Assembly (NCBI GenBank): GCA_001797815.1
Contig: MGQK01000022.1
Coordinates: forward strand, 6,646-14,311
Length of the DNA stretch: 7,666 nt
Origin: Deltaproteobacteria bacterium RBG_13_61_14
GTDB lineage: Bacteria; RBG-13-61-14
Reading direction: 5' to 3'
The notes below the pieces were generated by a model. It saw only the letters and a list, made by a program, of their open reading frames with translations, was not told the origin of the DNA and did no database searches. A program made the translations under genes and the position numbers. Below are positions 4,699 to 7,666 of this stretch, piece after piece (the stretch's first letter is position 1; each line of letters begins with the position of its first letter).

Positions 4699-5847
4699 AT
4701 GAAGATGAGATGGGCAAGGCTCCTGCTCCTAAAGACCCTGGCCGCGGGTGTGCTCGGCTGCGGGTGTCAGCCGACGTCCCCCCCGCCGGCCCCGGCCTTG
4801 CCGCCGGGCGCGAGCCTGATCGAAGCCCGCAACGGCAAAATTCCGCCCCTGACCCTGGAGTTTCAGCAGGAAGACCCGGACCAGCCCCGGCTGAAACTCT
4901 TGCGGGAGCGGGAGGGCCTGGATCAGGTAGTCGCCGGGGCCAAGGACGAGTTGGAAGTGTTTACCCGGCTTTGCGATTGGACCAATGCCCAATGGCAAAA
5001 CTCGACGCCCAACCCTTATCCTCCCTGGGACGCGCTCTTCATCCTGGACTGGATCCGGGCGGGCAAGACCGGCGGCTTCTGCGCCCAATACGCGGTGGTT
5101 CTGGTCCAGGCCGGCTTGTCCCTGGGCTACAGCGCGCGGTATCTGGCCGTTGCTCCGGAAAAGGGGGAGGACAGCGGCCACCTCACGGTGGAGGTCTGGT
5201 CCAATCAATACGACAAGTGGGTGGTGATAGACCCGTTTTTTAACGCGCGCTACGAACGCGAGGGGCTGCCGCTTTCCGGCCTGGAGGTCCACCAGGCCCT
5301 GGTGCAGGGCAAGGCCAAGCAGGTCCGGGTGATCCGCGGCCAAGGCGGCAACGGCGAGAAAAACTCGAAAGCCTCGGAGCAGGAAATGATCGGCTATTAC
5401 TTCCACCTGGCCGCGGACCTGCGCAACAACCACCTCTCCCGGCCCTTGCCCTTCTGGGACCGGCGCCAAGGATACCTGAGCTGGCAGGACTCTTTCACCC
5501 AGGGCCGGCCCCGGATCTTCGGCCGCTTCACCCGCGATCCCGAGGCCTTCAATTTCCCCCTCAACCAGGTGGAGGCGGAGTTCGAGCCAGCGGGTCCGGC
5601 CCGCCTCCGGGTGCGCCTGCGCACCGCCATGGTCAAATTCCAGGAATTCGAGGTGCAACCGGACCCGGGAAGCGCCCGGCGCCTGCGCCTGGAAGACCCG
5701 CTCATCGGACTCGATCCTCTCCAAGGCTCGGTCCTGGTTTACGAGTGGCCGCTCAAGCCCGGCGAGAACACGCTCACCGTCCGCAGCCGCAACGCCAAGG
5801 GCATCAGCGGCCCCGCTGCCTTCCTCCGGATCAGCTTCCAGCCCTAG
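4699..5847 (+). CDS. Transglutaminase-like lipoprotein
   Basis: 382 aa from ATG 4699. It begins with a type II signal peptide: basic MKMRWAR, hydrophobic LLLLKTLAAGV, then lipobox VLGC with Cys21 as the likely lipidated residue, so a membrane-anchored, extracytoplasmic protein. A Pro-rich linker follows. The papain-like transglutaminase core has all three catalytic residues: Cys128 (GGFCAQYA), His161 (SGHLTVEVW) and Asp178 (VVIDPFFN). Residues from about 280 onward look beta-rich (a possible Ig-like or carbohydrate-binding fold) and are unassigned. Bacterial members of this superfamily act as proteases, amidases or crosslinkers; the substrate here is unknown. The ATG at 4705 (start MRWAR) is an alternative, with AGGA nine bases upstream. 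A still longer frame from ATG 4597 is unlikely: it would begin upstream of the promoter and bury the signal peptide. The gene diverges from the sensor operon. Its stop codon lies inside a repeat-element target duplication. Confidence 0.85.
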   Translation: MKMRWARLLLLKTLAAGVLGCGCQPTSPPPAPALPPGASLIEARNGKIPPLTLEFQQEDPDQPRLKLLREREGLDQVVAGAKDELEVFTRLCDWTNAQWQNSTPNPYPPWDALFILDWIRAGKTGGFCAQYAVVLVQAGLSLGYSARYLAVAPEKGEDSGHLTVEVWSNQYDKWVVIDPFFNARYEREGLPLSGLEVHQALVQGKAKQVRVIRGQGGNGEKNSKASEQEMIGYYFHLAADLRNNHLSRPLPFWDRRQGYLSWQDSFTQGRPRIFGRFTRDPEAFNFPLNQVEAEFEPAGPARLRVRLRTAMVKFQEFEVQPDPGSARRLRLEDPLIGLDPLQGSVLVYEWPLKPGENTLTVRSRNAKGISGPAAFLRISFQP

Positions 5848-5880: not shown

Positions 5881-5904
5881 GTAGGGGCACGGCTTGCCGT
5901 GCCC
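5881..5904 (+). repeat. Hairpin unit A (REP-like) of element 1
   Basis: A GTAG foot followed by GGGCACGGC (5885-5893), a TT turn, and GCCGTGCCC (5896-5904): a perfect 9-bp stem. It is 20 of 24 bases identical to unit B read on the other strand. The four differences are two paired compensatory changes. Confidence 0.75.
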
Positions 5905-5911
5905 AGGATCA

Positions 5912-5935
5912 GGGCGGGGCAAGCCCCGCCCCTAC
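5912..5935 (-). repeat. Hairpin unit B (REP-like) of element 1, inverted
   Basis: GGGCGGGGC (5912-5920), an AA turn, then GCCCCGCCC (5923-5931): a perfect 9-bp stem, with the GTAG foot on the minus strand (5932-5935). Unit A lies 7 bases away in the opposite orientation. Confidence 0.75.
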
Positions 5936-6009: not shown

Positions 6010-6034
6010 GTAGGGCGCGATTGGATTCGCGCCC
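6010..6034 (+). repeat. Hairpin unit C (REP-like) of element 2
   Basis: A GTA foot, then GGGCGCGA (6013-6020), loop TTGGAT, then TCGCGCCC (6027-6034): a perfect 8-bp stem. The loop is the reverse complement of unit D's loop, ATCCAA. Confidence 0.7.
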
Positions 6035-6051
6035 GATCCCATCTGATAGAC

Positions 6052-6076
6052 GGGCGGGTATCCAAACCCTCCCTAC
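6052..6076 (-). repeat. Hairpin unit D (REP-like) of element 2, inverted
   Basis: GGGCGGGT (6052-6059), loop ATCCAA, ACCCTCCC (6066-6073), and the foot TAC: an 8-bp stem with one mismatch. Read on the minus strand it matches unit C at 20 of 25 positions, including foot and loop. Two stem pairs have changed on both sides. Confidence 0.65.
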
Positions 6077-6120: not shown

Positions 6121-7666
6121 CTATCGGAAGATGCGGTAAATCCGGATTTGCTCGTAGGGGGTCTTGGGCTTGCCGAGAGTGCCCAATCGGGTCACCTCTA
6201 TGAAGCCGCGAGATTTGGCCGGGTCCGGGGCCAGGGAGTAATGGAAGGTGACATACCAGGTGATATGGCGGTCGGCGATGTAGCGGAGCACCTGTTGCCA
6301 GCGCTCTTCGGTCAGGGGCTTGGTGCCCTGGTAGTAGTCGAAAATGTCGGGGTTGATGAGCGCGCCCAGGTCATAGACCCAGCGGCCGCAGTTGCCGCCG
6401 ACCACGCCCAGGCCGGTGTAACCCACCAGGATGCGCGCATCCTTGGACGTGTGCCGAGCCAGCCACAGCGCCGCGTCCAGGCGCAGGCCTTCGTTCAAGG
6501 AGACCTCTTGTTTAAACACCTTCCGGCCTTCTTGCCACTGGGGCCAGGAGACCGCGGCCAGGTAGAGCAGGAACACGGCAAAGCCGGCGGGAAAGACCAG
6601 GCGGCGCCGGTCGAGCCGCGGCCGGCGGAAAGCGATCCACTGGTAGAGGCGGAATAAGCCCGCGCAGCCGGCGATGGCGAAGCTCAGCATCACCGGGGCG
6701 ATGTAGCGGTGGTAATAGCCGCCAAAGGCCGGGCTGACCGGGAAGCTTAAGCCGTAAGCCGCGGGCAGGAAGACCAGGGGGAGGAGGATGAGGAGCCCGG
6801 GGGGAATCTCGGCCCGCCGTTTCACCAGGTCCCAAAGCGCGGCCAAGCCCAGGTAGAAGGTGGCGGCGCGGATGATCCGGCCGAGCAGTTGCAAAGGGGC
6901 GATGAGCTTATTCCAACCGTCATCCAGGGAGATCAAGGCCCAGAGCAGTCTTTCCGGCCAGGCGCGCTGGAGGAGAGCTGGGTCCTGGGCCATCATGATC
7001 TTGCCCAGGTAGGTGCCGGGCAGGAAGTGGCCGGTATGGTGATACACGAAGCCCAGGTAGGGAAGCACCGGGACCAGGAAGCAGATGCCGAAGAGGATAA
7101 GCTTTCGGAATTTTGGGGACACCATACTTAATTGCTTTGAGTCATGAGGAATTAAGTATGGTGTCCCTCTAATTAGGAAGGCGAGCGGGATCAGGGCCGC
7201 GGGCAAGAGCCCTTCCGGCCGGGTGAGGAAGAGGAGCGCGGAGAGCAGGCCCAGCGGGATCGGCCGAAAGCCGAAGCGCCCGACCAGCCAGATGAGCAGC
7301 GCGATTTCGAAGACAAAGAGCGCGGTCTCCATGCCGGAGACGGCGTTCATGAACAGGGCGGGCGAGGTCGCTGCGAGCAGGCCGGCGGCGAGGGCGAAGA
7401 GTCGCTCGCGGGTCAGTGCCCGGGTGATGGCTCCGGCCAGGAACACGGTGCCGCTGTAAGCGAGAATGCCGAGGGCCTGGACCACGAAGAGGTAGGATTT
7501 GATGCCGAAGATTCGGAGGAAAAAGCTGACGAGCACCGGCCAGAGGAAGCTGGTGCAGCCGAAGGAGGTTTCGTGGGGGTTAAAGGAGAAGCCTTGGCCC
7601 TGGGCCAGGTTCTCGGCGTAGTGGCGGAAGATGTAGGCGTCGTCCAGGGGCAGGCCCTTGGCGGAC
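6121..7666 (-). CDS. Polytopic GT-C glycosyltransferase (GT39/ArnT-like or AftB-like), 5' end missing
   Basis: The frame stays open past the GTG at 7536 to the window edge, so the start lies outside; about 514 codons are visible. The upstream part encodes LPLDDAYIFRHYAENLAQG, then GFSFNP and TSFLW. This is the first luminal loop of GT-C enzymes, with the paired Asp that acts in catalysis. Then come SGMETALF (about 110-117), TRPEG (about 148-152), many membrane helices, and RYIAPV (about 330-335). A soluble extracytoplasmic C-terminal domain follows (about 376-514, with GYTGLGVVGG and YDLGALINP). Such enzymes move a sugar from a polyprenyl-phosphate donor to an envelope glycan, lipid or protein outside the inner membrane. 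The motif set recalls AftB-like arabinosyltransferases as well as GT39; the acceptor is unknown. Residues about 165-186 come from a palindromic repeat inserted in frame between two helices. Confidence 0.85.
   Translation of the reverse strand, partial: SAKGLPLDDAYIFRHYAENLAQGQGFSFNPHETSFGCTSFLWPVLVSFFLRIFGIKSYLFVVQALGILAYSGTVFLAGAITRALTRERLFALAAGLLAATSPALFMNAVSGMETALFVFEIALLIWLVGRFGFRPIPLGLLSALLFLTRPEGLLPAALIPLAFLIRGTPYLIPHDSKQLSMVSPKFRKLILFGICFLVPVLPYLGFVYHHTGHFLPGTYLGKIMMAQDPALLQRAWPERLLWALISLDDGWNKLIAPLQLLGRIIRAATFYLGLAALWDLVKRRAEIPPGLLILLPLVFLPAAYGLSFPVSPAFGGYYHRYIAPVMLSFAIAGCAGLFRLYQWIAFRRPRLDRRRLVFPAGFAVFLLYLAAVSWPQWQEGRKVFKQEVSLNEGLRLDAALWLARHTSKDARILVGYTGLGVVGGNCGRWVYDLGALINPDIFDYYQGTKPLTEERWQQVLRYIADRHITWYVTFHYSLAPDPAKSRGFIEVTRLGTLGKPKTPYEQIRIYRIFR
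7109..7174. repeat. In-frame palindromic repeat inside the GT-C gene
   Basis: GGGACACCATACTTAATT (7116-7133), a 16-base loop, then AATTAAGTATGGTGTCCC (7150-7167): perfect 18-base arms. AATT continues the symmetry on both outer sides (7109-7112 and 7171-7174) after three unmatched bases, giving 66 bases or 22 codons. It is distinctly more AT-rich than the gene around it. In the coding frame it reads through without a stop as GTPYLIPHDSKQLSMVSPKF. It resembles palindromes spread by REP-associated or IS200/IS605-like transposases; that link is from memory and untested. Confidence 0.8.

Follow-up and report, generated by a model that had tools for sequence, protein, structure and literature searches.

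A putative miniature mobile element of two facing TIRYT-type repeats lies in frame within a predicted membrane glycosyltransferase gene

The window, meaning the whole stretch of DNA that was analysed, comprises 7,666 nt of the genome of Deltaproteobacteria bacterium RBG_13_61_14 (a 4.74-Mb assembly in 132 contigs). At one end it contains a predicted membrane glycosyltransferase gene, which runs on the minus strand from past position 7665 down to 6121 and can be traced beyond the window edge. A Pfam search of the encoded protein gave no match, NCBIfam returned a weak match to a putative glycosyltransferase family, and a stretch of 11 residues near the N terminus is masked. Within this GC-rich gene lies an AT-rich palindromic unit of 66 bases, the limits of which are set by its outer AATT boxes (Table 1).

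Table 1. Coordinates of the glycosyltransferase gene and of the palindromic unit within it
Feature	Position in window	Strand	Basis
Predicted membrane glycosyltransferase, 543 aa complete, start outside the window	6121-7666	-	ORF; orthologues with 43 % and 42 % identity (the two closest); weak NCBIfam match; codon scores of +40.1 on one side of the unit and +41.2 on the other
66-bp TIR dimer, from AATT box to AATT box, in-frame product IRGTPYLIPHDSKQLSMVSPKF	7109-7174	-	Ends mostly match the limits of homology with other dimers; one of six frames open
First TIR core arm GGGACACCATACTTAATT, outer box AATTTTG at 7109-7115	7116-7133	+	Exact match; solo copies conserved from -7 to +18
Loop GCTTTGAGTCATGAGG, 16 nt	7134-7149		Most frequent loop length in the 8 dimers of the host genome
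Second TIR core arm, inverted, outer box TCTAATT at 7168-7174	7150-7167	-	Exact match

The original prediction, which was made from the sequence of the window, described a perfect 18-base inverted repeat with a 16-base loop, and this description is confirmed by the two identical arms. In 200 dinucleotide shuffles of the window, 0.01 arm matches are expected at up to three mismatches, and two matches occurred in none of them. The RNA of the coding strand folds across the palindrome with -32.5 kcal/mol (z -7.6), and the 66-nt unit alone, folded as DNA, reaches a z of -7.96, the two inverted repeat units forming one hairpin. As the original prediction noted, a hairpin in the transcript might affect translation or mRNA stability. 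The motif GGGGWSAS, which is discussed below, is fitted by GGGGACAC at 7115-7122 in the first arm; the second arm has AGGGACAC, which lacks one G.

Since the length of the unit is a multiple of three and the coding frame stays open across it, the gene reads through the palindrome and gains 22 residues (visible residues 165-186), as had been predicted. The single open frame of the unit is the one used by the host gene. Hydropathy plots place the peptide between two hydrophobic segments, and orthologues carry an unrelated short basic loop at this position, for example QLLRGNKSAALR, which agrees with the location that had been proposed. The peptide is absent from all 21 aligned homologues, the closest of which share 42-43 % identity with the protein, so the same peptide does not recur in homologues of other genomes. 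The unit encodes 22 residues, but compared with the two closest orthologues the protein is longer at this point by only about 11 to 15, as the interval between fixed motifs measures 47 residues here and 32 and 36 residues there. The smaller gain may reflect the loss of some of the original loop residues; alternatively, the ancestral loop may have been short.

A loss of loop residues could also be taken as a sign that the host gene has been inactivated and is decaying, with the element lying in a pseudogene. This explanation is highly improbable, since the frame is open over 543 amino acids, the codon scores on either side of the unit are those of strongly coding sequence, and conserved segments of the glycosyltransferase resume past it.

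The arm is not unique in the host genome, where it occurs at 70 places with up to two mismatches, 32 of them exact, while a reversed-pattern control yielded none. The palindrome is therefore a dispersed repeat. Loop length in this protein family is highly variable, which would leave room for a chance palindrome within an ordinary protein loop. However, the copy number, the match of the unit to other dimers and the absence of the peptide from the aligned homologues rule this out for practical purposes. In two sister genomes of the same order (G001 and G002), the arm was not found with up to one mismatch.

Most of the 70 places are solo arms, in which positions -7 to +18 with respect to the core are conserved (AATTCGG GGGACACCATACTTAATT C) and which in most cases carry GGGGACAC as their fit to GGGGWSAS. 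Eight form inverted dimers, whose loops measure 11, 16 or 21 nt. Homology among the dimers mostly ends at unit positions 1 and 66, corresponding to 7109-7174 of the window, and the dimers at C46:42849 and C99:65319 share 98 % identity in otherwise unrelated surroundings. A codon-score test of 60 host-genome sites revealed one convincing in-gene site, namely the window copy. A second candidate, C3:226, was rejected as probably a chance match due to two mismatches, a lower score and the absence of the AATT box. The possibility of a target-site duplication was also considered. As the outer AATT is self-complementary, it does not discriminate at the window copy, and in other genomes the ends are inverted (GTTCGG/CCGAAC) and not direct, which argues against such a duplication.

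Several minor observations were made on the other copies. Some solo arms share 70-300 bp of sequence downstream. At several of them (L077:4055, L079:3850 and L083:3202; L053:797, L056:2799 and 8009, and L078:4504), about 110-300 bp of intergenic sequence recurs between copies, and these arms resemble one terminus of longer elements that have eroded. An Rfam search of seven loci with solo arms and long common flanks found nothing. In two hybrid pairs, L064:165 and L079:10132, which are 94 % identical across 72 bp, a TIR arm precedes an inverted arm that belongs to another type, AAATTAGGGACAGTCACCTATTTC. In addition, gene 3' ends are overlapped by arms at L071:5173 and L082:3249, an ORF in L082 terminating within a dimer.

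A Y1 transposase gene flanked by the same arms, another expectation of the original prediction, does exist. Among 19 Y1_Tnp matches in the host genome, there is one such gene (C46:40512-41174, 221 aa), which carries the motifs NHVH and YIELNP and whose stop codon lies at the edge of the downstream arm and is overlapped by it. The remaining Y1 genes that were read have different ends. A 227-aa Y1 gene on C40 was rejected as the cognate transposase because its flanks are ATACTGGGGACAGGCCCCAGTAT, and several 320-aa Y1 genes have GGGGTCAG ends. The 320-aa class is present in many copies in the host genome, and a different flanking inverted repeat beginning GGGGTCAGGTCT was seen for it at L033 and L166 there and at L164 in G001.

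A scan for relatives of the C46 transposase identified 43 loci, with hosts including Desulfobulbaceae, Geobacter, Riflebacteria, Tectomicrobia, Bacillota, Salinisphaera and Omnitrophota. In a transposase tree, the C46 gene was not placed next to any single lineage. For most relatives with a nearby arm match, the arm lies 47-61 bp upstream of the start and the inverted arm directly after the stop; the Omnitrophota loci had no arm match nearby. The arm variants CCATAC, CCTTAC and GTATAC usually occur as the same variant at both gene ends. In the Smac51 genome, two near-identical copies diverge just outside the TIRs. One Bacillota and one Riflebacteria genome contain the same inverted dimers, mostly with short loops, and their arms co-vary, with 22 compensatory cells compared to a shuffled mean of 7.2, a value of 22 being reached in none of 2000 shuffles. 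Of 141 genomes from the order to which a Geobacter relative belongs, 18 contain the exact arm and 22 a close transposase; 7 contain both, giving an odds ratio of 4.6 (one-sided Fisher p 0.009) that is not corrected for relatedness.

Taken together, the palindrome is best read, with a probability of roughly 0.8, as a miniature non-autonomous mobile element consisting of two facing TIRs of a TIRYT-type Y1/HUH transposase separated by the 16-nt loop. It was probably spread by a TIRYT, and we infer transposition itself from the shared ends and the co-occurrence. The C46 transposase would act in trans on the single-stranded hairpin form of the dimer, as proposed for REPINs and RAYTs, and would have placed a copy in the glycosyltransferase gene. 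This copy could have survived because its 66 bases are divisible by three, the frame used is the only open one of its six, and its peptide falls into a loop that joins two membrane helices. Selection against insertions into genes would account for the fact that nearly all copies are intergenic and that the single in-gene copy is in frame.

Counting against a mobile element are the absence of an empty site among the orthologues, the nearest of which share only 42-43 % identity, the net gain of 11-15 instead of 22 residues, the lack of compensatory changes between the arms in the eight dimers of the host genome, and the exact-arm genomes in which no close transposase was detected at an E-value of 1e-60 (11 of 18). 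The last point would also fit another process, in which the dimers spread by template switching or repair copying at replication forks, or by hairpin recombination, and the transposase gene merely bears copies at its ends. Most solo arms have no intact partner, and the common downstream stretches of some resemble a mosaic of intergenic repeats, as such a process could leave behind. Nevertheless, it is rather unlikely, as arm type and transposase are associated across phyla, the spacing being fixed and the ends co-varying, and the other Y1 genes of the host genome have different ends. A further explanation is that the peptide or the mRNA hairpin has been put to use, regulating translation or altering the enzyme, and is kept by selection. 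The intact frame and the strong hairpin would be in line with this. However, the peptide is the default product of the repeat and homologues manage without it, so a function of this kind is very unlikely.

The arms, the transposase and the spacing match the TIRYT/TIRtron group and not GTAG REPs or the palindromic elements (RPEs) of Rickettsia. TIRYTs and TIRtrons were named, and the motif GGGGWSAS given, by Di Nocera et al. 2013 (PMC3733652), who reported TIR repeats as singles, dimers and clusters. As in TIRtrons, a Y1 transposase with NHVH and YIELNP is located here between inverted repeats of the GGGGWSAS type, and the repeats are dispersed as singles and dimers (70 places, with 8 inverted dimers). 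In contrast, the present case of an in-frame TIR dimer within a protein gene is not mentioned in the accessible text of that paper. According to Quentin et al. 2018 (PMC6006769), TIRYT transposases have about 240 aa, the HuH motif NHVH and the Y motif YIELNP, most TIRYTs belong to subclass 2.1, and REP-like repeats were not found near those genes. Here, however, the ends of the transposase gene recur at about 60 sites, as a family that includes hairpin dimers. Among the 20 literature matches listed, out of 152 for the arm strings, there was no relevant paper. The kind of element has thus already been described, and the unusual feature is the copy of a TIR dimer inside a gene.

The arrangement is similar to that of REPINs and RAYTs (Bertels and Rainey 2011, PMC3116915), for which it is proposed that one chromosomal Y1 transposase mobilises, in trans, two inverted units within one hairpin. 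The present arms differ in that they have no GT[AG]G tetranucleotide at their feet but begin with AATT, and in that the transposase is TIR-associated. An identity as a GTAG-type REP was therefore rejected.

The original prediction had compared the element to the in-frame palindromic elements of Rickettsia. This holds for the arrangement, a palindromic repeat in frame within a coding gene that adds a short peptide, but not for kinship. According to PMC3733652, a CGTC tag marks RPE-4 and RPE-6, and no transposase is known for CGTC repeats. No CGTC was found at either end of the present unit, the ends being of the GGGGWSAS type of TIRYTs. A Rickettsia-type element was rejected for this reason, and the sequences are unrelated as far as the tags show. 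Hence, the prediction stands for a dispersed, in-frame palindromic element and a transposase with the same arms, while a relationship to Rickettsia elements is not supported.

In-frame REPs within genes are known for the GTAG and CGTC families. Quentin et al. 2018 (PMC6006769) describe them inside tnpAREP genes of subclass 2.4, likewise as frame-preserving inserts in a surface loop, although in that case the gene with the insert encodes the transposase itself and the repeat is a GTAG REP. With the present locus, the TIR dimer joins the palindromic repeats that can reside in frame in protein genes, and a short palindrome of several phyla is tied to a definite transposase lineage. The chances are about even that TIRYTs of the subclass 2.1 type possess a miniature form resembling REPINs, which spreads along with them between phyla and, by inserting in frame into a protein gene, can give the protein a new peptide loop. 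The transposase and its hairpin substrate form a testable pair for studying the spread of REPIN-like repeats.

Next to the glycosyltransferase gene, between it and a gene ending at 5847, the window also contains two inverted GTAG...CTAC doublets (5881-5935 and 6010-6076). The first of these looks like a canonical GTAG REP doublet, and its unit GTAGGGGCACGGCTTGCCGTGCC occurs at 87 places in the genome with up to two mismatches, so this host harbours a GTAG-type family as well as the TIR family.
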